A stretch of DNA of 61,318 bases from positions 1 to 61,318 of the forward strand of contig JAMOBD010000010.1 of the NCBI GenBank assembly GCA_039908345.1, given 5' to 3'. Positions 1,707-55,014 of this stretch are shown piece by piece (the first letter of the stretch is position 1; each line of letters begins with the position of its first letter). Position numbers and translations under genes: made by a program. Source of the stretch: Magnetospirillum sp. WYHS-4. Lineage in GTDB: Bacteria > Pseudomonadota > Alphaproteobacteria > Rhodospirillales > GLO-3. A model generated the notes under the pieces. The model searched no databases, had not been told where the DNA came from, and saw only the letters and a program-made list of their open reading frames with translations.

Positions 1707-2804
1707 TCACCGCTCCCCGAACAGGGACAGGAAGTCGCCGTAGCCTTCCTCCGCCAGCTTTTCCTTGGGGATGAAGCGCAAGGCCGCCGAATTCATGCAA
1801 TAGCGCAGCCCCGTCGGTGCCGGGCCATCGTCGAAGACATGGCCAAGGTGGGAATTTCCGGCCTTGCTGCGCACTTCGGTGCGGACGGAGAACAGCTTGC
1901 GGTCGCTACGGGTGGTCACGCGGTCCGGCGCCAGGGGCTTGGTGAAGCTGGGCCAGCCGGTGCCGGAATCGAACTTGTCGCGAGACGAGAACAAGGGCTC
2001 GCCGCTGACGAGATCGACGTAAAGCCCGTCCCGCTTCTCGTCCCAGTACTCGTTGGAAAAAGCCCTCTCGGTCCCCTCCTCCTGGGTGACCTTCCATTGC
2101 AGCGGGGTCAGGCGTTGGCGCAACTCCGCCTCGGGCGGGCGGGCGTAGCGCCGCTCCGGCTTGCCGATCCGGGTCACGTCGACCGCCAGATCGGCACCCC
2201 AGGCGGCGCGGACGAAGGACAGACGTCCCGATCCCACCGCATAGGCCTGATATTGCAGGGCGTTCTTGCGATGGTAGTCCTGGTGGTGGTCTTCCGCGGC
2301 ATGGAATCCGGTAAAAGGCAGGATCGCCACCGCGATGGGGCGGTCGAACCTGCCGGAAGCCGCCAAGGCGGAACGGGAACGCTCCGCCGCCTCCCGTTGC
2401 GCCTCGTCGTGGTAGAAGATCGCCGGCCGGTACTGGGGGCCGCGGTCGTGAAACTGTCCATGCCCATCGGTGGGATCGAACATCCGCCAGAAGGCTTCCA
2501 GCAGGCCGGCGTAGGACACCACCCGTGGATCGTATTCGACCTGGACCGATTCCAGATGGCCGGTGGCGCCCCGGCAGACCTGTTCGTAGGTAGGGTTGGC
2601 CTCCTTGCCGCCGGCATAGCCGGAGACGGCACGATGGACCCCCGGCAGCTTGGCGAAGCCCGATTCCACGCACCAGAAGCAGCCGCCGGCGAAGGTGGCG
2701 ACGGCCAGATCGAGCGGTTCGGTCCGGGCCAAGGGAACGGGTTCGGACGGCGCCATGGCGAAGCCTCCCAGGAATGCGAAAAGGGCGAGAAGGTGGCGTT
2801 TCAT
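1707..2804 (-). CDS. msrAB: Exported MsrA/MsrB fusion methionine sulfoxide reductase
   Basis: A 365-residue fusion. Residues about 1-22 form a hydrophobic export signal. The MsrA domain follows, with the catalytic GCFWC loop (Cys42). The MsrB domain fills the last 130 residues, with GTGWPSF and the catalytic RYCMN (Cys336). MsrA reduces the S and MsrB the R epimer of methionine sulfoxide. The two CXXC zinc motifs of many MsrB proteins are absent (LVSGEP and KAGNSH stand in their places), as in other fused forms. Export implies repair of periplasmic proteins; the electron donor is not encoded nearby. Start chosen at the ATG directly before the [10 protein letters not shown] signal; in-frame starts exist at 2807 and 2840. 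Confidence 0.9.
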
Positions 2805-2938
2805 CATCACGGCTAGAAGGTTTGCATTCCACCCGGCCATGTCAAGACGCCCCGGCAGCCATACCGATTCCGTTCTTGTCGCCGTCCTGCTCCGGTACGA
2901 GAATTTCTCCTTGGAATTTCAATCCGGCGGGGAAGGCC

Positions 2939-4639
2939 ATGCCGGACACGATCAGCCAGCCACCTCCAGCCCTGAAATCGGAGCGGGATCGCTTCGTCGC
3001 CCTGGCATTCTGCTGGGCCGATATGATTCTTGAGCTGGATGAGGCCGGCGTCGTCCAGTTCTCCGGCGGCGTGGTCGATGCCGTTCTCGGCCGCCAGCCG
3101 GACGACCTGAAGGGCCTGGGCTTCGGGGATCTGGTTCTGCCCGCCGACCGACCGCTGGTGGCCGAACTTCTCGACGCGGCCCGCCATCGCGGCCGCATCG
3201 AGAATGTCTCCATCCGCCTCCAGGGAATACGCGGGCCGACGGCCCCCCTGCAATTCGCCGGCTATTTCCTGCCCGACCTGAATCGCCACTTCTTCCTGTC
3301 CTTCCGGGTTGGGCCGCCGGCTGCGCTCCGCCATCCGGAACGGGAACTGCACCGGGATACCACCTCGGGGCTCTATCGCAGCGACACCTTCTCCGAAATC
3401 GCCTGCGAGGCCCTGGGCGCTACCCCAGTCACCCGCACCCCGGAAGCCAAAGATGCCCCGCGGGCCCTCACCCTGATCCAGTTGGACGGCTTTTCGGACC
3501 TGCAGGCCCGCCTGCAGCCCGATGCCCACCGGCAACTGGAGAGAACCATCGGCGCCTGCCTGAAGGCCCATGCGGTGGACGGGGATGCCGCCGGCGTGGT
3601 GGCGCCGGGGCGCTACAGCTTGGTCCACACGGCCGAGGTGGACGTGGGCGACCTGGAAGACAAGATCGCCAATTACGCCCGCGCCGCCGACCCGGAGGAA
3701 AGAGGGGTCGATGTCGGTTCGGCTACCATCGCGGTCGATACCCATCTGGTCAGCGAACAGGATTTGGCGACCGGCCTATTGCACGTCATCAACCGTTTCC
3801 GCAAGAACGAGGGCCCGGCCTTCACCCTGAAGAAACTGTCGAACAACCTGTCGTCGCTGGTCGGCGAGGCGGTGCGGGCGGTGGACCTGTTCAAGAACCT
3901 GGTTCTGGCTGGCGAGTTCGGCATGCGCTTCCAGCCCATCAATCATGTGGAAACCGGCCGGGCGCACCATTTCGAGGTCCTGGCAAGTTTTCCCACCGCC
4001 ATCGGCCAGGGCTCGCCCTACCGCTACATCACCTTCGCCGAGGAAACCGGCCTGATCTGCGACTTCGACATGGCGATGGTGCTCAAGGCCCTGGACTGGC
4101 TGGCCCGCGAAAACCGCCTGGGCCGGTACCGCATTGCCGTCAACTTGTCGGGCCATTCCATCGGAGTGCTGTCCTTCGTTGACGAACTGCACCGGCAGTT
4201 GGCCCAGAATACCTGGGCCCAGCGGTCCCTGATCTTCGAAATCACCGAGTCCGCCCGCATCCACGACCTGGATGCGGCTAACCGCTTCATCCAGAGCCTG
4301 CGCAAGCGCGGGCACGAGGTTTGCCTCGACGATTTCGGCGCCGGCGCCGCCAACTTCCAGTACCTCTCGGCCCTTGAGGTCGACGTCGTGAAACTGGACG
4401 GGGAAGCTCTGAAGCAAGCCATCGCCGGCCCGCGCGGCCGGGCCTTCCTCAAGGCATTGGCGACGCTTTGCACCGAACTGGGCGTCGACATCATCGCGGA
4501 GATGGTCGACGACCTCGCGATGTTCAAGTTCGTCAAGGACTGCGGTATCCGCTATGTCCAGGGCTACCTGTTCGGCAAGCCGTCCGAAGATATCTCGGTC
4601 TTCGGCCGGGGACGGCGCCTGGATTGGATGAATTCTTGA
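2939..4639 (+). CDS. EAL-domain c-di-GMP phosphodiesterase with PAS-like N-terminus
   Basis: A 566-residue cytoplasmic protein. Residues about 15-110 resemble a PAS domain, about 130-290 a GGDEF-like region without the GGDEF signature, and about 315-560 an EAL domain. EAL residues visible are EVL (metal Glu), NLS, FEITES, DDFGAG, VKLD and the late QGYLFGKP, so the metal-binding and catalytic set looks largely intact, although the usual AEGVET loop reads AEMVDD. Such proteins hydrolyse c-di-GMP to pGpG. Start: the ATG at 2939 follows GGGGAAGG; the open frame further upstream has no comparable ribosome site. A PAS-GGDEF protein follows within 75 bp, suggesting an opposed c-di-GMP pair. Confidence 0.85.
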   Translation: MPDTISQPPPALKSERDRFVALAFCWADMILELDEAGVVQFSGGVVDAVLGRQPDDLKGLGFGDLVLPADRPLVAELLDAARHRGRIENVSIRLQGIRGPTAPLQFAGYFLPDLNRHFFLSFRVGPPAALRHPERELHRDTTSGLYRSDTFSEIACEALGATPVTRTPEAKDAPRALTLIQLDGFSDLQARLQPDAHRQLERTIGACLKAHAVDGDAAGVVAPGRYSLVHTAEVDVGDLEDKIANYARAADPEERGVDVGSATIAVDTHLVSEQDLATGLLHVINRFRKNEGPAFTLKKLSNNLSSLVGEAVRAVDLFKNLVLAGEFGMRFQPINHVETGRAHHFEVLASFPTAIGQGSPYRYITFAEETGLICDFDMAMVLKALDWLARENRLGRYRIAVNLSGHSIGVLSFVDELHRQLAQNTWAQRSLIFEITESARIHDLDAANRFIQSLRKRGHEVCLDDFGAGAANFQYLSALEVDVVKLDGEALKQAIAGPRGRAFLKALATLCTELGVDIIAEMVDDLAMFKFVKDCGIRYVQGYLFGKPSEDISVFGRGRRLDWMNS

Positions 4640-4711
4640 AATGCTGGCCTTCCAACCGATGTAGAGGGTAAAGTCCAGGAGGTTGGACCGGCCTGGGCAT
4701 TGGGGGAAGAC

Positions 4712-6382
4712 GTGGACGACCTGCGGAACGAGCGGACGGGCGAAAGCGAAGGCCTGCTGGCCGGGTTTCCCGGCGCGGCCCTGCTGGTCCGCGGCAACGG
4801 CCAAGTCGCCGCCGCCAACGCCAAGGGCGCCGGGGTCGAGGCGCTGCTCCGCCACAACGCCATCCCCGAGGTCCTCGGACTGATCGAGAAGGCCGCCCTC
4901 GATTCGACTCTCGCGGTCGGCACCGTCTCGCTGGCCGGAACCCGGGGCGAAGTCTTGCTGGAGGTAACCGTCGTGCCGCGGGAGCGGGACAACCTGTTCC
5001 TGGTGCTGGCCCGCGATCTGACCATGGAACGCAACCTGCGCTCCGCCCTCGTCGAATCCCGCCAGCGTTACAAGGACTTGGTGGAGGTATCATCCGATTT
5101 CGCCTGGGAGGTGGGGCCGGAAGGCCAGTTCGTCTTCGTTTCCTCGCGTGGCGCCCTGGGCTATGCGGCGAACGAGTTGGTGGGCCGCCGTCCCGAGCAA
5201 TTCGTCCGCAACGCCGACGAATACGATCCTCTCCCCTTCGTCAGCGACCGCCCCTTGAGCGACGTGGAACTCTGGATGAACCGGGCCGAAGGCGAAGTGG
5301 CCTGCGTTCTGGCATCCTGCGTCCCCCTGCTCAGCGAGAAGGGAGAATGGCGCGGCACGCGCGGCGTCTGCCGCGACGTCACCGTGGAACGGGAACAGGA
5401 GGCGGCGCTCGCCCGCGCCCGCCACCGCGAACAGCTGCTCAACTACATCGTCAGCACGGTTCGCGACGAGGTCGAACCGCTCAACATGCTGACCGCCGCC
5501 GCCGCCGCCACCGGGCGGGCCCTGGCCGCCGCCGGTTGCCGCATCTTCCGCCAGCAGGATCAAGGATATTTCGCGGTCGCGGCCGAACATGGAACGGTGG
5601 TGGGGCTGGAAAAGCTGGCAGACCGCCTGACGGCCCTGGAAAGCGACGGCGGCGTCCTGGAACTGGAAATCGGCCATTGGGTGGTGCTGCTTACCGCTAC
5701 CCAGTATCGTCAGGCGGTGAACGGGGCAGTCGCACTGTGGCGCGATGGCGCGGCGGGAGCCTGGGACGACGACGCCCGCATCCTCGTGGGCGACGTGGCC
5801 AACCAGTTGGGCATCGCCAACGAGCAGATCGCCAACCACGAGCACATCGTCAAGATGTCGCGCACGGACCCGATGACCGGCATGCTCAACCGGCGCGCCT
5901 TCTTCGAGGAGGAACTGCCGCGCCGCATCGCCCGCCTGGTCCGCGCCAACGCCACCGCCGCCCTGTTCTATGTGGATATGGACAACTTCAAGCGCGTCAA
6001 CGACGTGCACGGCCACCATGTGGGCGACGAGGCCATCCTGGCCTTGCGTGACATGCTGCTGGAACACTCGCGCCCCGGCGATCAACTGGCCCGCCTGGGC
6101 GGCGACGAATTCGCCATGTGGCTGGACGGCATCCCACCCGAGACCACCATCAAGCGCGCCACGGTCTTGATCGAAGACAGCAAATCGCTGCAGCGTTATT
6201 CGGGGGACGCGGCCCATCCCCTCGGTATTTCGCTGGGCATCGCCCTGTTCGACCCTGCCACCGGGGAAAGCCTCGACGATCTCCTTGCCCGCGCCGATGC
6301 CGCCATGTATGCCATCAAACGGGCAGGCAAGGGTGGATACCGGTTGGCCGAACCGCCCGGCACGGCGGTCAAGGCAAGCTGA
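4712..6382 (+). CDS. PAS-GGDEF diguanylate cyclase
   Basis: A 556-residue soluble protein with two PAS-like regions (about 10-110 and 115-225), a less conserved GAF-sized segment (about 230-380) and a C-terminal GGDEF domain. The active site reads RLGGDEF (GGDEF about 463-467) and is preceded by the RPGD inhibitory I-site, so product feedback by c-di-GMP is likely. It would make c-di-GMP from two GTP. Start choice is uncertain: GTG at 4712 follows GGGGGAAG; a TTG at 4700 lies in the same frame. It sits between an EAL gene and two DUF2336 genes, the first of which starts five bases after its stop. Confidence 0.85.
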   Translation: MDDLRNERTGESEGLLAGFPGAALLVRGNGQVAAANAKGAGVEALLRHNAIPEVLGLIEKAALDSTLAVGTVSLAGTRGEVLLEVTVVPRERDNLFLVLARDLTMERNLRSALVESRQRYKDLVEVSSDFAWEVGPEGQFVFVSSRGALGYAANELVGRRPEQFVRNADEYDPLPFVSDRPLSDVELWMNRAEGEVACVLASCVPLLSEKGEWRGTRGVCRDVTVEREQEAALARARHREQLLNYIVSTVRDEVEPLNMLTAAAAATGRALAAAGCRIFRQQDQGYFAVAAEHGTVVGLEKLADRLTALESDGGVLELEIGHWVVLLTATQYRQAVNGAVALWRDGAAGAWDDDARILVGDVANQLGIANEQIANHEHIVKMSRTDPMTGMLNRRAFFEEELPRRIARLVRANATAALFYVDMDNFKRVNDVHGHHVGDEAILALRDMLLEHSRPGDQLARLGGDEFAMWLDGIPPETTIKRATVLIEDSKSLQRYSGDAAHPLGISLGIALFDPATGESLDDLLARADAAMYAIKRAGKGGYRLAEPPGTAVKAS

Positions 6383-10672: not shown

Positions 10673-12535
10673 TCAGTAACTTGTATTGTCGGTCCACATG
10701 GAAGGCTCGAAACGGACGACTTGGTTGCGCCCCTTTTCCTTGGCTTGGTAGAGCGCCACGTCGGCGAACTTGAGTGCCTGCCAGAAGGTTCCGCTGTCTT
10801 CCGGAAATCCGGCCACGCCGATGGAAATGGTCTTCTTCAGTTTGGCGGTCGGGGTAATGACTTCCATGGCCTCGACCGTGGTCCGAATCTTCTCGGCGAC
10901 GGGGATGGCGGCCTCGACCCTTGTATCGACGAGGACGATGAGGAATTCTTCTCCACCGAAACGGATGACCAAGTCGTTGGCCCGCACCGACTGGCGCAGC
11001 GCCTTGGCCAGTTCCTTGATCACGACGTCCCCGGCATCGTGGCCGTAGGTGTCGTTGACCATCTTAAAGTGGTCGAGATCGAGCATCATGATCGTCAAGC
11101 CCGCCTTGTGGCGCTCGGCGTTGGCGACCAGGGTGTCCATGTACTCTTCGAGGAAACGGCGGTTGTTGAGGCCGGTCATGGGGTCGCGCAGGCTCGATTC
11201 CTTGAGGGTCGCCATCAGGCGCTTGCTCTCCAGCACCGGGGCCGTCTCGCGAAGGTAGACGTTGATCAGGGGGAGTTTTTCGATGATATCGGCCTCGTTG
11301 CCCCCATGGGTCACCAGTTGCAGGACATTGCCGACCCCGCCCGACTGGATGACCGGGATGCATACGTGTCGGCGGCTGCCCGGCCCGTCCTTGGGCCTGA
11401 AGGAATAGCAGATGTCTGGATTCTCGATGCCGTTGACCGTATGGCCGGTGCGCCGCGCCCGGCAAGCCTCGGCGCGCACGGTGATCTGCATGTCGCACCA
11501 GCGGCAGGCGGCATCCTTCTCGCCATCGACGATGAGCGGAAGAATCTGCGTCTTGTTGGAATGCATCTCATAGATGGAATATTCGTGGATATCGAGCTCG
11601 TTGCCAAGCACCCGGGACAGACGCTCGTATATCTCTTCCTTGGTTTCATCCTCCTCGATGGCCTGCTTGAAATGAGCCGCCCTGGTCAGACCGCTGACCA
11701 TGTCGATGGTGGCATCGAGCAGGTTCTCGCCGGCCTTGGGAGACCGCTTGGTCAGACGGGCGACGTTGTCGCCGATCTGGTGGAGGCCATTATCGAGAAA
11801 TGTCAGCAGCCCGTTGAGGTCGGTGGCGATCTTGCCAAGTTCATCGTTGCTCGACTGCGTGACGCGGGCTTTGAAGTCCCCTGCAAGGGCCTTCTGGACG
11901 ACATGTTCGACATCGACGGCGGTCTGCGTGATGGGCTTAATCACCCGGCGCACGAGAACGAGCGAGATCGCGGCGAACACCGCCACCGTTCCGACGATGC
12001 CGGCAATGATCATCAAGGCCTTGTACTTGAGGTTGCCAATGGACATCGAGAGGGTCACCGCGCCCAATACTGTCCCTTCGGGAACCTGGTGGCACTCAAG
12101 GCAATTGGGGGAACCCTTTGCGGTGGCAGTGAAGGGGATTGTGCCCCTGAAGATCGTATCCCCATCAACCTCGACGACTTCGTAGGCCGTCCTCCCCTCG
12201 TCGATGACCCGGCGCTCAAGCTCATCGACAGGCGCCTCCTGGGTGAGGCCCTCGCCGAACTGGTTGATAACCTTGGGCGAGCGGACCACACGAGCCGAGG
12301 AAAGACCTTGGACGTCCATCAGGCGGCGCAGAAAGTTCTCCCGCTTGTCGATGACCCCGTTGATCATCGATTCGGTCAGATGGACCCGCACGATCTCGGC
12401 GGCCGTCCGGATATGTTCAGACGACGAAGCGATGGAAAACGACCGGAATGCATAAAGGTTTATCGCAACAAGCATGGCAATGAGGCCGATGGCGATGATT
12501 GTAAACGCCAACATGACCTTGGAATTCAGACGCAC
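10673..12535 (-). CDS. Diguanylate cyclase with periplasmic c-type haem motif (HAMP-GGDEF)
   Basis: A 620-residue membrane sensor. Segments at about 8-30 and 172-195 flank a periplasmic domain of about 140 residues that ends in a CXXCH site (SPNCLECH, Cys145/Cys148/His149), as in haem-binding or Tll0287-like (DUF3365) sensors. A HAMP region follows at about 200-250, then a cysteine-containing GAF-like segment (about 310-450) and a GGEEF domain (about 527-531) preceded by the RAND I-site. It probably makes c-di-GMP in response to redox or gas binding at haem. Start: GTG at 12535 behind GAGGGAGAAACT; an in-frame start at 12592 has no good ribosome site. Stop lies in a gap convergent with the coiled-coil gene. 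Confidence 0.85.
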   Translation of the reverse strand: MRLNSKVMLAFTIIAIGLIAMLVAINLYAFRSFSIASSSEHIRTAAEIVRVHLTESMINGVIDKRENFLRRLMDVQGLSSARVVRSPKVINQFGEGLTQEAPVDELERRVIDEGRTAYEVVEVDGDTIFRGTIPFTATAKGSPNCLECHQVPEGTVLGAVTLSMSIGNLKYKALMIIAGIVGTVAVFAAISLVLVRRVIKPITQTAVDVEHVVQKALAGDFKARVTQSSNDELGKIATDLNGLLTFLDNGLHQIGDNVARLTKRSPKAGENLLDATIDMVSGLTRAAHFKQAIEEDETKEEIYERLSRVLGNELDIHEYSIYEMHSNKTQILPLIVDGEKDAACRWCDMQITVRAEACRARRTGHTVNGIENPDICYSFRPKDGPGSRRHVCIPVIQSGGVGNVLQLVTHGGNEADIIEKLPLINVYLRETAPVLESKRLMATLKESSLRDPMTGLNNRRFLEEYMDTLVANAERHKAGLTIMMLDLDHFKMVNDTYGHDAGDVVIKELAKALRQSVRANDLVIRFGGEEFLIVLVDTRVEAAIPVAEKIRTTVEAMEVITPTAKLKKTISIGVAGFPEDSGTFWQALKFADVALYQAKEKGRNQVVRFEPSMWTDNTSY

Positions 12536-12849
12536 AGTTTCTCCCTCGCCCGGCGAAACAACCCTAGAAACATGTGGGATTTTCCAAGCCATCTCCCCCC
12601 CCCTACCCCAAAGTCGGCTTAACTTAGCTTTTAGAAAGATTAAAAGCTAGAATTAAAATATATTATTTCCGCCCATGTGCTTCTCATGGGGAAAAAAATA
12701 CTACCGTGAACATGAATAACGCGAATTAGCCCCCACCCTTATCCACATATTGGAGGCTGATTACCTGCAACCAAGGCCGTTACACACCATGTGGCCAGGA
12801 CAGCCACCTTGAAGCACGCGGAACGACCGGTTCGGTGGGGAACGGGAGT
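12536..12849. other. AT-rich intergenic region between diguanylate cyclase and tRNA-Gln
   Basis: This 314-base stretch holds no convincing gene. Its central part (about 12620-12720) is far richer in A and T than the rest of the window and contains a perfect inverted repeat described separately. A weak GTGGC/GCCAC hairpin near 12790-12806 lies downstream of the tRNA but lacks a T run. The leftward promoter of the cyclase gene must lie here; no single pair of hexamers stands out. Confidence 0.5.
12625..12649. repeat. Perfect 9-bp inverted repeat with 7-bp spacer
   Basis: TAGCTTTTA, spacer GAAAGAT, then TAAAAGCTA. The arms are fully complementary. It lies 90 bp upstream of the haem diguanylate cyclase start, in AT-rich DNA. 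It could be an operator for a dimeric regulator or part of a transcript end; nothing in the sequence decides between these. Confidence 0.6.
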
Positions 12850-13106: not shown

Positions 13107-13340
13107 ATGGCCATGGAACCTTTAGGCTCCGTTTTTTCGAGTGCCTACCAGTCGGCGGTCCGTCAGGCCCCGCAGGAAGTGCAGGTAGCTACCGCGGCGG
13201 TGACTACCGTCGGGCAGGTCGATGCGGTCCAGGTTGGCGTTTCCAACCAAGGGACGGTCGGCGACGAGGCCAAGAACAACACTCCGAAGGCCCCCCCGGT
13301 CGCCCCCCACCTCGGTCGTCTTGTCGACGAAGAGGCTTAA
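13107..13340 (+). CDS. Small hypothetical protein (77 aa)
   Basis: A short acidic protein rich in Ala, Val and Gln, with no cysteine, membrane segment or known motif; the C-terminal third is Pro-rich and probably disordered. It has a near-consensus ribosome site (AAGGAGGATGAA before ATG) and a good sigma70 promoter, so it is probably well expressed. It starts a run of three small genes. Function unknown. Confidence 0.65.
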   Translation: MAMEPLGSVFSSAYQSAVRQAPQEVQVATAAVTTVGQVDAVQVGVSNQGTVGDEAKNNTPKAPPVAPHLGRLVDEEA

Positions 13341-13379
13341 GCTCCTGCCCTTTAATCTTCGAGACTTGGAGGTTCTGTC

Positions 13380-13691
13380 ATGGCAACGGAAATCAATGGG
13401 GTCCCACCGGTCGGTTCGGAACGCCTGATCGTTCAGCCGGCTTTGGCGTTTTCCAGGGAAGCGACCCAGAGTCAACGGGAATACGCCGAACAGGCGCGCC
13501 AGGAAGCCCTGGAAGCCCAGAAGGAGGAGCGGGCCAAGGCCGCCGCAGCCGCGGAACAGGCCGACAAGTCCGCCCAGCACGACGCTCCGGAACAACAGCC
13601 GGGCAGCGGCGGCGGCGAGAAGGAAGCCGGCCAGGGGGACGACAAGTCGCCGGCGCCTCAGACCAAGGCGCATGTGAGCATCGTCGCTTGA
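13380..13691 (+). CDS. Small charged, probably disordered protein (103 aa)
   Basis: Residues about 25-65 form a long charged helix (SREYAEQARQEALEAQKEE region) rich in Ala, Glu, Gln and Lys, predicted to be a coiled coil. The tail is Gly/Pro/Gln-rich and likely disordered. GGAGG precedes the ATG by nine bases. The stop overlaps the TTG start of the next gene. No family is recognised. Confidence 0.65.
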   Translation: MATEINGVPPVGSERLIVQPALAFSREATQSQREYAEQARQEALEAQKEERAKAAAAAEQADKSAQHDAPEQQPGSGGGEKEAGQGDDKSPAPQTKAHVSIVA

Positions 13692-14026
13692 TCGGCGTTG
13701 GCGACCGCGTCCGGGCTCGTCGTCTTTGGCTTTCGTCTTTGGGATTGGCCTTATGGATGGCAGTGGGGTCGGTGGCCTTCGCGCAGGGAGGCCCGACGCC
13801 GCGCCGGGATTCACCGGGCGCCATGGTCGATGAGACCCTGAGCCGCCTGCTCGGCCTCATCGAGACCTTCCTGCAAGCAGTCCCCAGTTATGAGACACCG
13901 GAAATCCAGGATAACGGTGACATCGTCATCCGCCGCAAGAAGCCGCCGACGGAGTCGCCCACGCCGCCCAAGTCCGGCCCCATGCCTCCGAAGAAAACTC
14001 CCGGCCCGGACACGACGCGCACCTGA
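13688..14026 (+). CDS. Small secreted hypothetical protein (112 aa)
   Basis: The N-terminus has basic residues, then a hydrophobic stretch (about residues 13-31) ending VAFAQ, consistent with a Sec signal peptide. The mature part has an amphipathic helix (ETLSRLLGLIETFLQAV) and a Pro/Lys-rich tail containing repeated PP(K) units. Start TTG at 13688 overlaps the upstream stop by four bases. Probably periplasmic; function unknown. Third of three genes on one likely transcript. Confidence 0.6.
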   Translation: MIGVGDRVRARRLWLSSLGLALWMAVGSVAFAQGGPTPRRDSPGAMVDETLSRLLGLIETFLQAVPSYETPEIQDNGDIVIRRKKPPTESPTPPKSGPMPPKKTPGPDTTRT

Positions 14027-46818: not shown

Positions 46819-47840
46819 GGGCTGGCGGGCGCCTCCGGCTGGGGTTGCTGCTTGGGCGGATGGCTCAGCATCTTGCTGAGCCCCTTGATTTCGAACTTGA
46901 GCGACCCCGTCGGACAGACGTCGACGCAAAGCCCGCAACGGGTGCAGTCGGGCCCGATCTGGGTGGCGACGTCCTGGGCGTAGGCCTTCTTGGTCACTTC
47001 CAGCACGTGGGGCACCAGGCAGACCTTGCGGCAGTCGCCCTCGTGCAGGCACTTCTGGATGTCGTAGCGCACGTGCACCGGTGTCGCCGCCGTACCCACG
47101 AAGCCGTAGGTCAGGCCGATGGGGCAGATGTAGCGGCACCAGGCGCGCCGGGTGATGAAGATCTCGAACAGCAGCAGACCCGCCACCCACAATAGGGCCA
47201 ACGTCGGCCCGTAGATCAGGGCGCGGCTGAGAATGCCGGTGGGCGAGATGGCCTCGAAGACCGTATAGCCGGTCACGAAGGCCAAGCCGGCGAAGATCGC
47301 ATAAAGCACCGTCCTGGTACCCCGGTGCATGGTGAAATCGCGCACCAGGTTCTGTTCGGCCAGCTTCACGTGGATCTTTTCCGCCAGTTCGGCCAGCAGG
47401 TGGTAAGGGCAGACCCAGGAACAGAAGGTCCGCCCACCGAAGATCCACCAGAGGATCAATACCGTGATGGTGCCGATCACCAGGTTGATGAGGATCTTCT
47501 TGTGAGCCAGCATGACCTGGAGCGCCGAATTGAGGTCCGCGAAGTGAAAGCCGACCACCCGCGAGGCGGTCAGCGCCCCTTCCACCAGTTGCACGTCCCA
47601 CCAGTAGGAAACCACGAACAGCAGATTGACCACCAGCAGGGTCGCCCAGCGGCGGTTGCGCCATTTGTGGGACCGCGCCTTGTCGGCTTCGGCCCGGATG
47701 GCGGCGACCCGTTCCTTCTTGTCCTCGATGGCCCGCTTAGCCGCGTGGATGGCGCGGGCGGCCGGCGTATAGTCGGAATCGCGGGGCTTGGCGTCGGGCG
47801 CACGGCCCAGCATGACGGCTGTCTGGCGAAGCATGCTCAT
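46815..47840 (-). CDS. nosH: NosH, polyferredoxin-type membrane protein (NapH-like)
   Basis: A 341-residue membrane protein with four to five hydrophobic segments. Two CXXXCP motifs of NapH/NosR type are present, FCSWVCPYHL and WCRYICPIGL, and the C-terminus has two [4Fe-4S] motifs (CLHEGDCRKVC and CTRCGLCVDVCP). It probably passes quinol-derived electrons with NosG to the periplasmic cytochromes that feed NosZ. ATG at 47840 overlaps the nosG stop (TGATG). Identification as NosH comes from the NosG-NosH order. Confidence 0.88.
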   Translation of the reverse strand: MSMLRQTAVMLGRAPDAKPRDSDYTPAARAIHAAKRAIEDKKERVAAIRAEADKARSHKWRNRRWATLLVVNLLFVVSYWWDVQLVEGALTASRVVGFHFADLNSALQVMLAHKKILINLVIGTITVLILWWIFGGRTFCSWVCPYHLLAELAEKIHVKLAEQNLVRDFTMHRGTRTVLYAIFAGLAFVTGYTVFEAISPTGILSRALIYGPTLALLWVAGLLLFEIFITRRAWCRYICPIGLTYGFVGTAATPVHVRYDIQKCLHEGDCRKVCLVPHVLEVTKKAYAQDVATQIGPDCTRCGLCVDVCPTGSLKFEIKGLSKMLSHPPKQQPQPEAPASP

Positions 47841-48604
47841 CACACGTCTCCCCAGGTCTTGCGGATGTCGATCACGATGGCCGCCGGTTCCACCGGACAG
47901 ATCATCTCGCACATGCCGCAGCCGACGCATTTGTCGGTGATGACGGGCGAGCCGCGGAAATCGTCGTCGCCCGCCTGGATGCGATAGAGCGCGATGGCGC
48001 CTTCGATGGGGCATTCGCGGACGCAAAGATCGCAAAGCGCCAGGTCGTACTTGTACTGGCCCAGGGGAATGGGCTTCCAGCGGTCGATCTCGTTGTAGCG
48101 GTGCAAGCCCGGAAAACCGTCGCCCCGCGCGTAGCCCTGGAACCCCTTGCCCTGGCGCGCCAGGCAGGCGCCGGGACGGGCCAGGCGGGCCAGGCCCATG
48201 CGCACCTGTTCCTTCTTGTCGATCTTGTGGCTCAAGGCTTCCGTGGGGCAGGCCAGGATGCACTGGGTGGCATCGCAGGAAAAATCGCAGGCCTGGGTCC
48301 GGGCGTCGATGTAGGGCACGCCGACCCCGAAGCCTTCGTCCAGGTCGCCCAGCTTGATCGCCTCGACGGGGCAGACCTGCACACACTGGCCGCACTTGAT
48401 GCAGGCGGCGAGGAAGTCCTTTTCGGCGATGGCGCCGGGCGGGCGCAGGCGCTCGGTCCATTTCTTCAGCACCGGGAAGAAGCCCAGCAGGGCGGCGCCG
48501 ACCACCGTGGCGCCAGCCGCCGCCGAACGCAGGATGGCGCGCCGTTCCTTGCGTTGCTTCTTGGGATTCTTGACGATCTTGGGCGGGGGGGCTTCGGGTT
48601 TCAT
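47840..48604 (-). CDS. nosG: NosG, NapG-like periplasmic ferredoxin
   Basis: A 254-residue iron-sulfur protein. The N-terminus is strongly basic, then hydrophobic (about 28-48). Four cysteine clusters for [4Fe-4S] centres follow: CIKCGQCVQVCP, CDFSCDATQCILACP, CDLCVRECP and CVGCGMCEMICP. It lacks a clear twin-arginine pair, although RRAILRSAAAG is close to one. With NosH it forms a quinol dehydrogenase module that replaces NosR in clade II nos clusters. Confidence 0.9.
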   Translation of the reverse strand: MKPEAPPPKIVKNPKKQRKERRAILRSAAAGATVVGAALLGFFPVLKKWTERLRPPGAIAEKDFLAACIKCGQCVQVCPVEAIKLGDLDEGFGVGVPYIDARTQACDFSCDATQCILACPTEALSHKIDKKEQVRMGLARLARPGACLARQGKGFQGYARGDGFPGLHRYNEIDRWKPIPLGQYKYDLALCDLCVRECPIEGAIALYRIQAGDDDFRGSPVITDKCVGCGMCEMICPVEPAAIVIDIRKTWGDV

Positions 48605-48616
48605 GATCCTGTCTTT

Positions 48617-49933
48617 CTACTTGCCCAGGCGTTGCTTGAGGCCGAACGGGTCGAATTCCCCCCCGTCGTCTCCCCCCTTGGCAGCCGCCCGCGCCTGACG
48701 CCCGGCCACCGGCGGCATAATCAGCGGCTTGTCGTCGCGCATCAACAGGATCGGGTCGGTGAGCGGCGCCAGGCGTTCCAGGAAATCGACCAAGGTGAGC
48801 ACCGGCGCGCCGCGGAAGAACGCGGCATGCGGGACATCCATCCACAGGCGATCCGCATAGACCCGAAGTTCGTAAGGCGTATCGCCGATGCCGTCGCCGT
48901 CGCGGTCGAACCCCTGGTAGTCGTCCCAATAATTGCCGTCCCAGAGGTTCCGGGCCGCCGAGGCCCGGGCGTTCACCGACACCTGCACCAGATTGTGCTC
49001 GAAGCGGTTGGCCCTCAGTTCGTTGCCTTTCCAGTCATTATGGAACAGAACCCCGATCCCCGTAAAGGCGACGTGGTTGCGTTCGATGCGGTTGCCGGTG
49101 TCCGGCTGGAAGGGCGATAAGTCCAGGTAGATGCCGTTGGACACGTAGACGATCTCGTTGTCCTCGATGGTCGTGCTGCTGGTTTCCTTGAGGCCGATGC
49201 CGACGCCCGTGGCCCCGGTGCCATTGGTCACCCGGTTGCCCCGGATGACGATGCCGTCCGAATACATCAGGATGATGCCGACCGAATTGTCCCAGTAGGT
49301 GTTGTCCTCGACCAGATTATGCTGGGCGTACATGAAATGGAGGCCGTAGCGGCTGTCGCTGACCTTGTTGCCGCGGATCGTATTGTCCACCGAATGCCAG
49401 ACCACCACGTCGCGGGAACGGCTGATCTCGTTCTCCTCGATACGATTGGAACGGCTGAACCAGAGCCGGATCGCATCGCCCCGCATGCCCAGTTCCAGAT
49501 CCTTGGAATGGACGACATTGCGTCGCACGACGTTGCTGTCCGACTGGTGCAGGTCGATGCCGAACAGAGTGTCCTCGATGACGTTGTCCTTGATGACGTT
49601 GAAGCTGCCCTTGACCTGGATGCCGGCATCGACGTCGTTATGGGATTCCCCGGAATTGACCAGACGCAGGCCGCGCACCGTGGCGCCGTCGGTCTCGATG
49701 GCCAGCACCGTTCCCTTGCCGCCGCCGTCGATGGTGACCTTGCCGTCGCCGTCCAATACGATGGGTTTGGCAACGACTAGCGGCCCGGCATAGGTGCCGG
49801 GCGGCAGGATCACCACGTCCTTGTCCTGGGCGGCGTCGATGAACGGTTGGGCGGAGGGCAGGACGGCCGCCCAGGCGGCGGGCCCCATCAGCCCCGCCGC
49901 CACGACCGCCGCTGCCACCCTGATAATCGCCAT
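48617..49933 (-). CDS. nosD: NosD, periplasmic beta-helix protein of CuZ assembly
   Basis: A 438-residue protein with a Sec signal peptide (about 1-23, ends AWAAV) and a right-handed parallel beta-helix: turns such as NVIKDNVIEDTLFGIDLHQSD, NVVRRNVVHS, NRIEENEISRS and NTIRGNKVSDSRYG repeat through residues about 60-330. NosD works with NosF and NosY in maturation of NosZ copper sites. A Gln/Ala/Arg-rich C-terminal tail is variable. Spacing to nosB is 23 bases. Confidence 0.92.
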   Translation of the reverse strand: MAIIRVAAAVVAAGLMGPAAWAAVLPSAQPFIDAAQDKDVVILPPGTYAGPLVVAKPIVLDGDGKVTIDGGGKGTVLAIETDGATVRGLRLVNSGESHNDVDAGIQVKGSFNVIKDNVIEDTLFGIDLHQSDSNVVRRNVVHSKDLELGMRGDAIRLWFSRSNRIEENEISRSRDVVVWHSVDNTIRGNKVSDSRYGLHFMYAQHNLVEDNTYWDNSVGIILMYSDGIVIRGNRVTNGTGATGVGIGLKETSSTTIEDNEIVYVSNGIYLDLSPFQPDTGNRIERNHVAFTGIGVLFHNDWKGNELRANRFEHNLVQVSVNARASAARNLWDGNYWDDYQGFDRDGDGIGDTPYELRVYADRLWMDVPHAAFFRGAPVLTLVDFLERLAPLTDPILLMRDDKPLIMPPVAGRQARAAAKGGDDGGEFDPFGLKQRLGK

Positions 49934-49956
49934 GGCCCGTTGCCGGCGCCGCCCGT

Positions 49957-50943
49957 TCAGTGACCGGCCATCCGCGTGCGCTTCAGTTCCAGCAGGCCGG
50001 CCAGGGCCATGCTGACCCCGACCGCGGCGAACAGGGCGAAGCCGTAATGCGGATAGGAATGGGTGCTGAACTGGGCCACCTTGCCTTGCCCGAAGACGGT
50101 GGGCATGAAGGGCTTGATGGTGAAGGCCGCCATCTCGTGCAGGTTATGGCCGAACCACCAGAGCCAAGCCGAGTATTCGATGACGAAGAACACCGGCAAA
50201 AGGGCCGGCACGATGACCAGCACCCAGCGGGTGAAGCCCCACTTCCAGACGCCGAAGCTGAGCACCGCCAAGGCCGCCAGGATGCCCCAATAAGTCACCT
50301 TGGCCGCCGCGTTCATGATGCCGGACCGGTGCCCGATCTCTTGCATGTCGCGGAAATAGCGGCCCAGGGCCTCGCGATAGCTTTCGTCGATGACGACGAA
50401 TCCGGACCAGTCGGCGTAATCCTTGAGGTCCAGGTCCATGGTGCCGACGAAGTCGCCGATATAGTTGGGGCTCAGCATCAGAACCCCGCCCTTGGTGAAC
50501 ATGGCCATTGTCATCCAGACGGCAATGCCGAGGGAGCCCGCGGCCACGACGCCCACCTGCAAGCCCTTCTTCGGAATGGCGAAAGCCACGATCATCAATC
50601 CCAGCAGGGAGAACAGGAACGGCGAGAAGGCGCGCTCGACGGGACCGCCGGCAGCAATGGGATACATGCCGACGTAGTGGTTGATGGCGTCCATCTCGTG
50701 CTTGCAGTTCAGCCGCTCGGTCTGGGTCTTCTCGGCCGATTCGATGATCTGGCAGCCGTTTTCCACCTTGTCGACATGAAAGTGGATGCGGATGCCTTGC
50801 GGGAAGGCGACCTCGGGATACTGGGGCGCCTTCAGGGACACCCACCAGATGGGGGAGACGTAGGCCACCGCCAGACAGACCAGGGCGGCGACGATGAGGA
50901 GGCGGAAAAGAAGGGTTTGCTTGGCGTTCGCGTCGGCGTTCAT
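49957..50943 (-). CDS. nosB: NosB-type integral membrane protein
   Basis: A 328-residue membrane protein with about six hydrophobic segments (first at about 12-32). A large loop after the first (about 45-110) contains VENGCQIIES and LNCKHEMDAINHYVGMYPIAAGG. This matches the position and type of NosB, which follows nosZ in clade II (Wolinella-like) clusters and whose function is not settled. Identification is by context and topology, so the symbol is less certain than for nosZ, nosD and nosF. Confidence 0.75.
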   Translation of the reverse strand: MNADANAKQTLLFRLLIVAALVCLAVAYVSPIWWVSLKAPQYPEVAFPQGIRIHFHVDKVENGCQIIESAEKTQTERLNCKHEMDAINHYVGMYPIAAGGPVERAFSPFLFSLLGLMIVAFAIPKKGLQVGVVAAGSLGIAVWMTMAMFTKGGVLMLSPNYIGDFVGTMDLDLKDYADWSGFVVIDESYREALGRYFRDMQEIGHRSGIMNAAAKVTYWGILAALAVLSFGVWKWGFTRWVLVIVPALLPVFFVIEYSAWLWWFGHNLHEMAAFTIKPFMPTVFGQGKVAQFSTHSYPHYGFALFAAVGVSMALAGLLELKRTRMAGH

Positions 50944-51022
50944 GGGCTCTCGGTTCCTCGAAAAAAGGTATGCCGCCGCCGGCGCGTCCTCCCCCTTGCG
51001 TCCGGCTTCTCCCCCCCGGGTC

Positions 51023-51049
51023 TCCCCCGCCGCTCGCGGCGGCGGGGGA
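51023..51049 (-). terminator. Strong GC hairpin between the second cytochrome and nosB
   Basis: Arms TCCCCCGCCGC and GCGGCGGGGGA (11 bp) enclose a five-base loop, in the 123 bp gap between the cytochrome stop and the nosB ATG. No T run follows on the minus strand. It may be a partial terminator or an mRNA stabiliser that sets lower expression of downstream maturation genes. Confidence 0.5.
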
Positions 51050-51066
51050 TAGGCGCTCGGTCTCGC

Positions 51067-51855
51067 TTACTTGAAGTCCGGATTCAGCCAGCCGACGGGA
51101 GCGATCATCTCCTTGGGCGGCTTGATGCGCGAGGTGTAGTCGATCACCGCCTTCATGTCGCGATCGGTGAAGTTCTTGATCTGCTGCACCATGTCCGGAT
51201 TGGCGTTGCGGCGCTTCTTGTCGCGGATCCATTCGAACTGGCGCAGCATGTACTTGTAGTGCTGAGCCTGGATGCGCGGATAGTACTTCTCGACGTCGCC
51301 CTCGCCGTTCTCGCCGTGGCAGCGGACGCAGTTTTCCTTGTAGAGCTTCTTGCCGTGTTCCAGGTCCTTGCCGTCGCCCACACCGTTGTTGGGGTTCATG
51401 GGCAGCTTGGCGATGTATTCGGACACGTCCGCGATGGACTGCGGGCCGCCGATCTGGCTGGGCAGGGCGAACGGGTACATGGTCGGATTGTCGCGGTTCA
51501 GCGCGCGGATGTCAGCCAGCTGCTTGATGATGACCTTGCGGTGCTGACCGGCCAACTGCGGGAAGGTGCCATCGTCCAGGCCCCAGCCTTCCGGCATATG
51601 GCAGGCGGCGCAGACCTCGTAGACGTCGCGGCCGTTCTTCGTGTCGGGCTTGAGGTGCAGCGCCTCGTCCTTTTCGCCGCCCGGCGAGTTCCAGACGTCG
51701 ATATTAGTCTTCTCGCCGGCCGGGGGCTTCATGCCGCCGGTAGCCGCCGCGGGGGCGGCCCCGCCGGCCGCGAAGGCGGCGCCGGCCGCCGCCAGGGCGA
51801 GTCCGGCCACGAGGGCGAAGGCGGAAACCGCCTTGATCTTGTTGGTGAGGTTCAT
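51067..51855 (-). CDS. nosC: Dihaem c-type cytochrome (NosC type)
   Basis: A 262-residue cytochrome with a Sec signal peptide (about 1-29) and an Ala/Gly/Pro linker. The two haem sites are CAACH (about residue 82) and CVRCH (about residue 178), each in a class I-like domain with nearby FPQLAGQH and YPRIQAQHYKY segments. It is the second gene after nosZ, where clade II clusters carry cytochrome genes nosC1/nosC2, and probably delivers electrons to NosZ. Which of the two names applies cannot be decided. Confidence 0.83.
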   Translation of the reverse strand: MNLTNKIKAVSAFALVAGLALAAAGAAFAAGGAAPAAATGGMKPPAGEKTNIDVWNSPGGEKDEALHLKPDTKNGRDVYEVCAACHMPEGWGLDDGTFPQLAGQHRKVIIKQLADIRALNRDNPTMYPFALPSQIGGPQSIADVSEYIAKLPMNPNNGVGDGKDLEHGKKLYKENCVRCHGENGEGDVEKYYPRIQAQHYKYMLRQFEWIRDKKRRNANPDMVQQIKNFTDRDMKAVIDYTSRIKPPKEMIAPVGWLNPDFK

Positions 51856-51882
51856 TCCTGGTTCTCCGTCACGATGCTGGAT

Positions 51883-52605
51883 TTACTTCGCGGTCCTGTC
51901 GACCTGCGACAGATACTCGGCGACCAGTTCCATCTGCTGGTCCGTCATGTTCTTGACGTTGGGAAGCATCAACTTGCTTTTCCCATTGGTACGCTTTCCG
52001 TCGCGGATATCCTTGATTTGGATCAGGATGTACTCTTTCTTCTGTCCTGCGGTCTGCGGATAGCCCTTGACCGTCGGCTTCTTGCCGTCGACGCCGTGGC
52101 AGGTCTGGCACTTGTTGGCGACGTAGAGCTTCTTGCCTTCCTCGATCTTCTGCGCGTCCGGCGTACCGGCCGGCTTGATGGGGTCCATCTTGGCCAGCCA
52201 GGCGGAAATCTGCTGGATCTGGTCTTTGGAAATGCGGGGCTTGCCCTCGGTATCCAGCAGGGCGCCCTTCATGCCGTGAGAGCGCGGATTGCCGGTGGCG
52301 TCGTTGCTGCCGGTGCGCTTGCCCTCGATGATATCGTTGATCTGAGCCACCATGTAGGCCTCGTCCTGGCCGGCCAACACGGGATACTCGGGCAGCGTCG
52401 GCTTGTTGCCGGGCAGCATGCCCTTGCCTTCCTTGCCGTGGCAGGCGACGCAGGTCATCATCATGTAGATGCGATCCGGCGCCATGGCCGGCGCGGCCTG
52501 GGCAAGTTGGACGGTCTCGGCGGCGCCAGCCTGGACGGGTCCGGCGGCCAACATCAGGGCGACGGCGCCACCCATCGCGAAAAGTCCTGCATTACGGATC
52601 ATCAT
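51883..52605 (-). CDS. nosC: Dihaem c-type cytochrome directly downstream of nosZ (NosC type)
   Basis: A 240-residue cytochrome: signal peptide (about 1-26, PVQAGA), then haem sites CVACH and CQTCH in two related halves that share YPVLAGQDEAYMVAQI and YPQTAGQKKEYILIQI, so the halves are an internal duplication. The same (A/T)GQxxxY pattern occurs in the next cytochrome. Start ATG at 52605 behind GGGAG; the frame continues to 52680 through the terminator stem without a ribosome site. Likely electron donor to NosZ. Confidence 0.85.
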   Translation of the reverse strand: MMIRNAGLFAMGGAVALMLAAGPVQAGAAETVQLAQAAPAMAPDRIYMMMTCVACHGKEGKGMLPGNKPTLPEYPVLAGQDEAYMVAQINDIIEGKRTGSNDATGNPRSHGMKGALLDTEGKPRISKDQIQQISAWLAKMDPIKPAGTPDAQKIEEGKKLYVANKCQTCHGVDGKKPTVKGYPQTAGQKKEYILIQIKDIRDGKRTNGKSKLMLPNVKNMTDQQMELVAEYLSQVDRTAK

Positions 52606-52641
52606 TTGGTCTCCCGGGCTCTGGTGTCTAGCAAGAGAGAA

Positions 52642-52667
52642 GGGGGACGGCGACGACGCCGTCCCCC
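52642..52667 (-). terminator. Strong hairpin between nosZ and the first cytochrome gene
   Basis: Read on the minus strand, GGGGGACGGCG-TCGT-CGCCGTCCCCC forms an 11-bp perfect stem followed by TTCTCTCTT. It lies about 25 bp after the nosZ stop. Such a stem is likely to end most transcripts after nosZ or protect the nosZ message, giving more NosZ than accessory proteins. Confidence 0.65.
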
Positions 52668-52689
52668 CCCTTTTGGCCAAGTCGGGGTC

Positions 52690-55014
52690 TTACTTCTTGG
52701 CGGGAGCGGCCGGTTCAGCGGCCTTCACGCGCTTGGCCCCGTTCTGCTCGAGGTAGGTCTTGGCGCGCAGACCGATGTCGGCGGCCTTGACCTGGTACTG
52801 GAACCACTGCTGGGCATTCAGGGTGGCGGCCTGCCAATCCTGCTTGCCAGCACCTTCTTCGGACTTCTTCTTCCACTCGTCAGCGAACTTGAGCTGCTCG
52901 GTGGCGTCCTCGACCATCGCGACGACGGGCTTGAAGTCCTGGAAGTTATGCTCGGTGATGAACTTCACCACGCTGTCGATCACACCTTGGGTGGCCACGT
53001 TCTGCTCGACCTGTTTCTTGTAGTCGGCATCGGTATAGGCCTGGCCCTCGGAGATCTTCGCGGAGGCCTCCTGGTAGCCCTTCGGCTTGACCAGCAGGTA
53101 ACCCTGCATCTCCAGGTGCAGCGCGGAGCAGAACTCCGTGCAGTAGTACGGATAGACGCCCGCCTTGTCGGCGACGATGGTGGCCGAGGCGGTCTTGCCC
53201 GGCTCCAGCGACAGGTTGGCGTTGGTGCCGAAGATGGCGAAACCGTGGGTTTCGTCTTCCGCGCGCTCCAGGTTGGTGATGTGGATGCTCACCGTCTCGC
53301 CTTCCTCGACCTCGATGATTTCGGGGTTGAAGTGCGAGCGGATCGCCGTGGCGTAGACATGGACCACACCGTCCTTGCGCTCGATCTTCTCGCGGCCCGG
53401 CAGGGTGCGGAATTCGGAACGCTCGTTGGTGCGGCTGTTGGTGCCGCTCTTGTAGGCGATCTCGGGCTTCAGGCGATCGGCCTTGATGGCCACCGCGTAG
53501 TGCGGCTCGCCCAGCGGCAGCGGCATGTCGTACAGCAGCTCCATCTTGTCGCCGCTGATGTCGATCAGCTGGTGGTTCTGCGGATGCAGGGGACCGACCG
53601 GATTGAAGCGGTCGATGGCCAGCTTGTTCAGCGACACCAGGTACTTACCCTGCGGCGTCACGGAATCGCCTTCCATCGACATCAAGTGGCCGATGTTGTA
53701 GTGGACGGAAATCTTGTCCAGTACCTTGCCTTCGCAGTAGTTCCACTTGGTGACCTGGCTGTCCACGTAGATGGAGGTGTAGACCACGCAGGGCTTGGAA
53801 TCGTACTGGGTGTGCAGGGGGCCGAGGCCGACCTGCACCTGGGTGTGCAGCGACTTCTTGAGGTCCAGGATGGGGATGCCGTAGGCGTCCTTGCCTGCGA
53901 AGTCCTTGGCCTCGGTCAGGGCCTTGATCTTCTCGAAGCTGTAGACCGAAGCGTGGGTGTCCAGCTTGCCGGACACGATCACGAACTTGCCGTCCGGGCT
54001 CACGTCCGCGCCGTGCGGGGACTTGGGCTCGGGGATCAGGAACAGCACGCCTTCGGCGGCCGTCACGTCCATCGGCAGCACCTTCATGCCATTGATCTCT
54101 TTGGCCTTTCCGGCCTTGACGAGTTCTTCGGCCTTCTTCCAGTTCACGACGTGCAGGAAGTCGGTGTCCTTCTGGGAGCAGCCGGCTTCGAAGGGCGGGC
54201 GACCGCGCTCGATACCGCCGACATAACGCTCGGAGCAGAAGGAGTTGGTGAAGGACCAGCCGTCGGACGGACCCTTGCCGAAGTCGGACAGGTCCTGGCT
54301 GTACGGCGGCAGTTCGAGCGAGAAGGATTCCTCGGGAACGATCCGGCCCTTCTTGCGGTCGAACTTCCAGTAGGTGATGGCGCCGCGATACTTCTCGTTG
54401 AATTCCGAGAGCGGCACGAAGTCGTTGGTCAGCGGCGCGGCGTACTGCGTCGGCTCGAGCACGTAGTCGGTATTGGGCGACACGAAGGCGCCGCCGTGTT
54501 CGGACTTCATGATCGGGTTGACGACGATCTGCTTGGTCTCGAAGTCGTGCAGGTCGATGACCGCGATGCGGGGGTTGTTCTTGTCGTTGATGAACAGGAA
54601 CTGCCCGTCGTACTCGCCGTTGGTTTCCGAGATGGCGGGGTGATGGGTATCGCCGAAAAGGATGTCCTTCCCGTTGATCTTGCCCTGCGCCAGCACGGCC
54701 TTCGATTCGTCGTCGTAGCCGTAGCCCTGCCAGGGCTCCGGCGTGAAGACGCCGATGTACTTGAGGATGCGCATGGACGGAATGCCATACACGATCACCT
54801 GGCCGCTCTGGCCGCCCGAGCTGAACACGATGAATTCATCGCGCTTGCCGGTCGGCACGTAGGTCTTGGCCGCGGCCAGGACGTCCTTCTCCGTCAGCCC
54901 ACGACGCTTCATCACGTCGTTGAGCTTCTCGGCCGACCACGCATCGGCGCCCGCGGCAAGGCTGAAGCCCACCGCGGTCAGCGTGATCAACGCCTTCCTG
55001 TAAAAGGATTTCAT
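52690..55014 (-). CDS. nosZ: Nitrous-oxide reductase NosZ (clade II / atypical type)
   Basis: A 774-residue multicopper enzyme that reduces N2O to N2 in the periplasm. A plain Sec signal peptide (about 1-28, AWSAEK) without a twin arginine marks the clade II form. CuZ ligands lie in a seven-bladed propeller: DTHHPAISE, SEHGGAF, SPHGADVSPDG, LGPLHTQ, NIGHLMSMEGD and GEPHYAV. The CuA domain has His590, then YYCTEFCSALHLEM (Cys625, Cys629, His633, Met636). A helical, charged extension of about 130 residues follows (about 645-774) with no haem motif. Preceded by an FNR/Dnr-type palindrome; a strong hairpin follows the stop. Confidence 0.96.
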   Translation of the reverse strand: MKSFYRKALITLTAVGFSLAAGADAWSAEKLNDVMKRRGLTEKDVLAAAKTYVPTGKRDEFIVFSSGGQSGQVIVYGIPSMRILKYIGVFTPEPWQGYGYDDESKAVLAQGKINGKDILFGDTHHPAISETNGEYDGQFLFINDKNNPRIAVIDLHDFETKQIVVNPIMKSEHGGAFVSPNTDYVLEPTQYAAPLTNDFVPLSEFNEKYRGAITYWKFDRKKGRIVPEESFSLELPPYSQDLSDFGKGPSDGWSFTNSFCSERYVGGIERGRPPFEAGCSQKDTDFLHVVNWKKAEELVKAGKAKEINGMKVLPMDVTAAEGVLFLIPEPKSPHGADVSPDGKFVIVSGKLDTHASVYSFEKIKALTEAKDFAGKDAYGIPILDLKKSLHTQVQVGLGPLHTQYDSKPCVVYTSIYVDSQVTKWNYCEGKVLDKISVHYNIGHLMSMEGDSVTPQGKYLVSLNKLAIDRFNPVGPLHPQNHQLIDISGDKMELLYDMPLPLGEPHYAVAIKADRLKPEIAYKSGTNSRTNERSEFRTLPGREKIERKDGVVHVYATAIRSHFNPEIIEVEEGETVSIHITNLERAEDETHGFAIFGTNANLSLEPGKTASATIVADKAGVYPYYCTEFCSALHLEMQGYLLVKPKGYQEASAKISEGQAYTDADYKKQVEQNVATQGVIDSVVKFITEHNFQDFKPVVAMVEDATEQLKFADEWKKKSEEGAGKQDWQAATLNAQQWFQYQVKAADIGLRAKTYLEQNGAKRVKAAEPAAPAKK

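Follow-up and report, generated by a model that had tools for sequence, protein, structure and literature searches.

A predicted diguanylate cyclase with a divergent periplasmic haem-Cache domain and a cytoplasmic four-cysteine GAF fold in Magnetospirillum sp. WYHS-4

The window, a stretch of 61,318 nucleotides from Magnetospirillum sp. WYHS-4, contains at 10673..12535, on the minus strand, a diguanylate cyclase gene of haem-Cache/HAMP/GAF/GGDEF architecture. Its product carries, in order, a first membrane segment (TM1), a periplasmic domain with a CLECH motif, a second membrane segment (TM2), a HAMP-like segment, a GAF fold and an intact GGDEF domain. The best explanation of the whole, which the sequence makes moderately probable, is an inner-membrane diguanylate cyclase with a divergent periplasmic sCache_heme domain as its input. 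An earlier note had proposed a cyclase gene with a periplasmic CXXCH at this position, and the open reading frame, motifs, domains and hydropathy all agree with it, the coding strand being minus. All features of the gene given below lie on that strand.

The first ATG of the frame gives 10673-12592, adding 19 residues. The GTG at 12535, the codon of residue 20, is the better candidate than the ATG at 12592, since GAGGGAG lies 5' of it and an ATG, GTG or TTG occupies the aligned position in 69 of 80 orthologs. TM1 (residues about 24-46; 12455..12523) corresponds to a hydropathy peak of 2.9 at residues 26-44 and to a long helix in the structural model, and TM2 (residues about 192-214; 11951..12019) to a peak of 2.6 at residues 195-213. 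The HAMP-like segment (residues 213-263; 11804..11956) matches Pfam PF00672 with an E-value of 1.9e-4, its 22.1 bits on the whole protein falling under the model's own cut-off of 25; 50 of 52 family members match HAMP at E up to 1 (best 9.2e-9). An antisense frame overlying the cyclase (10721-12622) and a long frame without a Pfam match at 13122-13814 are both probably spurious in this 66% GC DNA.

The orthologs are the best 80 loci kept from 579 candidate relatives of any kind found in a scan of public genomes. They share 52-68% identity with the window's cyclase over most of the protein, and their titles include Magnetospirillum, Phaeospirillum, Azonexus, Dechloromonas, Rhodoferax, Zoogloeaceae and Gallionella, among others. 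Counts out of 81 refer to these orthologs plus the window. Alignments of the membrane-plus-periplasmic part (A1) and of the GAF region (A2) each comprise 51 of the 80 orthologs and the window, and an alignment of the periplasmic part (A4) comprises 31 of the 80.

The output domain (residues about 465-626; 10715..11200) is recognised by Pfam as GGDEF (E 8.9e-48) and by TIGR00254 (E 9.4e-56). The claim that its active site and inhibitory site are intact holds across the family: the residues of the GGEEF motif (residues 546-550; 10943..10957), together with R537 and D540 of the I-site RAND (residues 537-540; 10973..10984), are each identical in 81/81 sequences. The window's protein is therefore very likely, as far as motifs can predict, an active cyclase. 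Other c-di-GMP genes are present: an EAL-domain gene and, after it, a PAS-GGDEF gene occupy 2774-6382 of the plus strand at a distance of 4 to 8 kb from the cyclase, and 28 GGDEF-like or related matches are listed for the genome, the weakest of them outside the GGDEF region.

The putative haem c attachment site, CLECH (residues 164-168; 12089..12103), in which His168 would be the proximal ligand, lies between both hydrophobic peaks, and about 24 residues that include one predicted strand separate it from TM2, in line with its placement near the end of the periplasmic domain. CXXCH is found in the periplasmic part of 80/80 orthologs and, given the identity at which it is kept, is not there by chance. 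Among the periplasmic Cys, His, Met, Tyr, Trp and Lys residues, only M76, C164, C167 and H168 are conserved at 95% or more in the 81 sequences; H60 is found in 73.

Several comparisons place the domain around this motif (residues about 47-190; 12023..12454) in the Cache fold. The Pfam model for Tll0287-like domains (PF11845/DUF3365) misses it, at 13.3 bits against a curated score of 24.1, which is a detection threshold and not the definition of sCache_heme used in PMC12889525; at E up to 1 the model matches 17 of 52 family members (best E 0.015). The AlphaFold2 (AF2) model of the periplasmic part has a mean pLDDT of 82.2, falling to about 66-75 in the blocks that surround M76 and the CXXCH motif. 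In the model's numbering, strands at 76-83, 115-121 and 124-134 are followed by CXXCH at 143-147 and a strand at 154-163, so that the motif sits between the third and fourth sheet strands of the predicted Cache fold, as in sCache_heme. Among the Foldseek matches listed for solved structures, two integrative models come first, followed by the best crystal structure, that of Geobacter GSU0935 (PDB 3b42; E 2.5e-5, TM 0.54 by target, rmsd 14 over 139 columns); according to PMC8396549, the GSU0935 crystal is a swapped dimer. VIA-align is led by WalK and CitA-type Cache domains (Z 10 to 12.6), and many non-haem Cache domains rank above Tll0287 (PDB 5b82; Z 8.8, rmsd 3.6, 116 aligned); 3b42 falls outside the best 50 VIA-align matches, which excludes nothing. 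Sequence searches of the PDB with profiles A1 and A4 turned up no haem sensor, and did not have GSU0935, GSU0582 or Tll0287 among the matches listed.

Profiles were compared with an alignment (A3) of 27 of 30 Tll0287-like loci, L109, L111 and L114 being omitted for closeness to others. Here hhalign reported a probability of 95.7 and, over 65 columns in which the two CXXCH motifs are aligned with each other, a score of 55.1; none of 200 column shuffles that kept CXXCH reached this score (maximum 42.3). Masking CXXCH in both profiles left the register the same and gave a score of 27.6 with a probability of only 29%, and again 0/200 shuffles reached that score (maximum 18.6). Since the masked score beats all the shuffles, the homology extends beyond the motif, though it is remote. 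By sequence, the periplasmic domain is a divergent relative of sCache_heme and not a Pfam member, a wording we adopt because the PF11845 cut-off is missed.

With this homology and the conservation of CXXCH, covalent attachment of a c-type haem is predicted with high confidence. The haem site proposed earlier is thus strongly supported by conservation and homology, the genome has a CcmF-type gene for haem attachment, and the bound haem itself is what we infer from them. CXXCH alone is a short motif, and it might hold a disulfide or another metal; this reading is very improbable, as the His is always present, CXXCH occurs in 81/81 sequences, the likeness to haem-Cache domains goes beyond the motif and the genome has a Ccm gene.

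More distant relatives were drawn from the 89 matches of the family GAF profile, which fall in 69 of 299 genomes of the phylum. Besides the window, 48 were examined. Score decided the choice of 29 loci (L121-L149); the other 19 (L150-L169, with L159 dropped because it duplicates L122) are distinct proteins selected for being divergent or of unusual length, so that counts in this wider set do not describe a random sample. CXXCH is present in 38/48 of these proteins, L133 being counted as lacking it only because a contig end cuts the locus.

Met76 (12365..12367), identical in 81/81 sequences, is the likely second, distal axial ligand of the haem. In the wider set, Met occupies this column in 35/37 ungapped proteins with CXXCH (the others have F and S) and in 0/5 ungapped proteins without it. 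As the whole stretch around M76 is conserved, its invariance need not imply ligation, and these counts support that role without proving it. In GSU0935 the haem is bound axially by His144 and Met60 (PMC8396549), and the spacing from Met to CXXCH is similar, 88 residues in the window's cyclase and 80 in the published numbering of GSU0935. The same source describes NO and CO replacing Met60 in reduced GSU0582 and GSU0935.

In the mechanism that we propose, one c-type haem would be held by the two cysteines Cys164 and Cys167; its proximal ligand would be His168 and its distal ligand, one that can be displaced, most likely Met76. Met76 would be removed by NO, or by a change in haem redox state, which also decides Met binding; its loss would change the Cache dimer, TM2 and the HAMP-like segment would relay this change to the GAF and GGDEF domains, and synthesis of c-di-GMP would be altered. 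The identity of the ligand, the preference for NO over redox as the signal and the direction of control are parts of this scheme that we infer. The four-cysteine GAF between HAMP and GGDEF probably acts as a gate on the output, by way of a bound metal, an Fe-S cluster or a thiol switch.

Control of the cyclase by NO or redox state would fit what has been measured for GSU0582, GSU0935 and the sCache_heme proteins, by analogy. We give NO about an even chance of being the main signal. In a 2026 preprint (Deshpande et al., PMC12889525), sCache_heme domains fused to signalling modules, including c-di-GMP enzymes, are described as NO sensors, and a HAMP-linked sCache_heme protein is reported to release NO with a koff of about 6e-4 per s and to form no stable oxy complex. 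Such NO-sensor kinetics weigh against a second reading, in which the haem follows the periplasmic redox potential, Met76 is bound in the reduced state and released in the oxidised one, and NO is incidental. For this reading speak the Met switch of GSU0582 and GSU0935, in which Met binds the reduced haem and leaves on oxidation (potentials of -156 and -251 mV; PMC8396549), the preference of that review for redox signalling, and the 2/12 ortholog-bearing genomes that have neither NosZ, NirS nor NirK. We regard haem redox state as a possible but rather doubtful main signal. Sequence cannot separate the two readings, because one physical protein could do both.

The cytoplasmic region at residues about 316-455 (11228..11647) is predicted to adopt a GAF fold. 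Its AF2 model (pLDDT 87.8, pTM 0.85) matches the GAF domain of Lcd1 in Foldseek (E 8.9e-7) and reaches Z up to 13.7 in VIA-align (rmsd 3.5, 154 aligned). Pfam fails to recognise the fold: on the window's protein no GAF model reaches its curated score, or even an E-value of 1, and GAF_2 matches 3/52 family members (best E 0.012). A PDB sequence search with the GAF profile A2 gave no convincing GAF match; the assignment is one of modelled structure.

Four cysteines mark this domain: Cys366 (11495..11497), Cys377 (11462..11464), Cys395 (11408..11410) and Cys411 (11360..11362). All are present in 81/81 close sequences; in the wider set, Cys377, Cys395 and Cys411 are found in 48/48 and Cys366 in 47/48. 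Cys363 (11504-11506) is likewise present in 81/81 but in only 30/48 wider homologs, and for this reason we count the conserved set as four. The 81/81 counts of Cys363 and Cys366 are partly biased, CRWCDMQI having been among the six patterns used to retrieve orthologs. The four-cysteine GAF fold, absent from the earlier note, may be a second sensor. At E-values no higher than 0.01, the cyclase is the one match of the family GAF profile in the window's genome. A response regulator-PAS-GAF-histidine kinase near nosZ (55786-57966, minus strand), possibly a regulator of the nos cluster, also has several cysteines in its GAF domain (CRVC, CVCG, HYCVP); as the profile finds the cyclase only, we did not join the two GAF domains as kin.

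The GAF-GGDEF unit appears with different inputs. Six proteins of the wider set (L154, L155, L157, L158, L162 and L166) have another periplasmic part, identified as sCache_2/dCache_2 by Pfam in the four that were scanned (L155, L158, L162 and L166) and similar by eye in L154 and L157. Three others (L150, L151 and L152) are four-cysteine GAF-GGDEF cyclases without a periplasmic domain, and each is followed on the same strand, 252, 373 and 92 bp downstream respectively, by a stand-alone Tll0287-like gene (Pfam E 1.3e-25 for that of L152). These arrangements (L150:1879-4266, L151:1936-4450 and L152:2539-4874) look like a split version of the window's protein; all three share the family label f52 and count as one lineage. 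A separate haem gene adjoining a haem-less cyclase is good evidence that haem-Cache and four-cysteine GAF-GGDEF unit work together.

The cysteines raise a further alternative, in which the GAF is the main sensor, of metal, Fe-S or thiol redox state, and the periplasmic haem only modulates it. Their near-invariance in the wider set, which includes the six proteins with a non-haem Cache-type part and the three without a periplasmic domain, argues for this view, and GAF domains with Fe or Fe-S exist in CSK/Hik2 (PMC6949291) and NorR (PMC4601167). It is nevertheless improbable, for the haem site is retained in 38/48 of the wider set and in the one lineage that was seen to combine a missing periplasmic domain with its own haem-Cache gene, that gene adjoins the cyclase. 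The window's GAF resembles those of CSK/Hik2 and NorR in its fold with conserved cysteine(s) but differs in their number and pattern, and whereas CSK/Hik2 and NorR hold Fe or Fe-S, the cofactor here is conjectural. A speculative combination, to which we give a minor share of our confidence, is a two-compartment sensor with a His/Met c-haem outside (NO or redox) and a metal or Fe-S GAF inside (redox, oxygen or NO), c-di-GMP being made only when both agree; on this view the GAF-GGDEF core would be a modular receiver that evolution has joined to a haem-Cache, an ordinary Cache or a separate periplasmic haem protein.

The general idea of sCache_heme domains fused to c-di-GMP enzymes is already in print (PMC12889525). 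The sCache_heme group described there (DUF3365/Tll0287-like, PF11845) shares with the window's protein an extracytoplasmic Cache domain with CXXCH before the last strand, transmembrane helices and HAMP, and has c-di-GMP enzymes among its outputs. The window's domain differs in falling below the Pfam cut-off, in its shorter CXXCH loop, in its invariant Met as candidate ligand and in the four-cysteine GAF fold that follows. GSU0935 and GSU0582 (PDB 3b42 and 3b47) have a chemotaxis output instead of c-di-GMP and are without a GAF domain. Tll0287, a stand-alone haem protein, shares the Cache fold with CXXCH, but its distal ligand is Cys rather than Met and it has no membrane or signalling part. 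In open-licence PMC literature, as far as titles and the first parts of abstracts reveal, no description of this architecture or of the four-cysteine GAF domain was recognised. Our findings add to the published picture the invariant Met76, the four-cysteine GAF fold with its modularity, and an FNR/Dnr/HcpR-type box in 20/80 orthologs.

The earlier note had also suggested that the cyclase fits a denitrifier, and the organism indeed looks like one. About 40 kb from the cyclase, at 52690..55014 on the minus strand, lies nosZ for a Sec-dependent (clade II) nitrous oxide reductase (TIGR04246, 897 bits against a cut-off of 625), and the genome encodes NirS with cytochrome c and d1 domains (PF02239, 489 bits) and CcmF (684 bits against a cut-off of 569). 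With NirS and CcmF, NO would be made in the periplasm and c-type haem could be attached there. The nos cluster (47840-55014, minus strand) comprises NosZ, two cytochromes c, a membrane protein, NosD and a ferredoxin-type protein, and an SCO1-like gene, identified by eye, lies at 55224-55808 between nosZ and the kinase gene mentioned above. Six further Tll0287-like matches occur in the genome, with four places listed: those on contigs C6, C8 and C69 (L117-L119) are kinase-like by eye and that on C29 (L120) is stand-alone.

Of 12 ortholog-bearing genomes in the order, 5 are without NirS and NirK, two of these also without NosZ, and denitrification is therefore not required for the cyclase. Across 120 genomes of the order, with relatedness uncorrected, NosZ is present in 10/12 ortholog genomes against 31/108 others (Fisher p 3.5e-4) and NirS in 7/12 against 28/108 (p 0.039); NirK is found in 0/12 against 14/108, and either nitrite reductase in 7/12 against 39/108 (p 0.21). 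We set the thresholds ourselves, at scores no lower than about 428 bits for NosZ (both types counted) and 485 bits for NirS. Several ortholog-less genomes of families f21 and f22 also have NosZ, and by our own reading the NosZ association is mostly common to these relatives. The co-occurrence of the cyclase with denitrification genes is thus suggestive, and given the uncorrected relatedness and these NosZ-bearing genomes we do not rely on it. In one genome (G082, L115:6910-14014), an ortholog and a NirS-like gene lie about 3.3 kb apart on the same contig, with a gene for a sensor-like protein of 1009 residues between them, in divergent orientation. When predicted genes at the 80 loci were clustered, no denitrification gene was recognised by eye among the 25 largest clusters; the largest besides the cyclase reaches 26/80 loci, many loci being cut at contig ends. 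Conserved neighbourhood was accordingly dropped as a functional clue.

A perfect TTGAY-N4-RTCAA box is found upstream in 20/80 orthologs, starting 122-127 bp before the codon aligned with residue 22, which is 116-121 bp before the usual start. Elsewhere in the 80 loci the pattern occurs 2 times in 798,088 bp, and 0.07 would be expected upstream. All 20 carriers (for instance L024, L031, L041 and L055) have Azonexus/Dechloromonas-like or unplaced betaproteobacterial titles, and these cases are consequently not independent. The box is kept while its flanks have diverged, and in 19/20 a CATAAT hexamer is located at 66-69 bp from its centre. This arrangement would place the box near -80, close to the position of class I activator sites. 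Its sequence is of the FNR/Dnr/HcpR type: PMC1274295 gives CTTGAT-N4-ATCAAG for Dnr and TTGAC-N4-GTCAA for HcpR, and boxes of this kind also for FNR. The box was not found in the 350 bp upstream of the window's gene, nor in the 17 alphaproteobacterial orthologs L003-L019.

Surface life of bacteria is controlled by NO and anoxia via c-di-GMP. Well-known NO sensors such as H-NOX and NosP are found in the cytoplasm, whereas the NO produced by NirS arises in the periplasm; this cyclase family would place a sensor there, linked directly to c-di-GMP. These findings bring to light a haem-Cache group that the standard Pfam model overlooks, in which haem would be paired with an uncharacterised four-cysteine GAF fold in a single enzyme.
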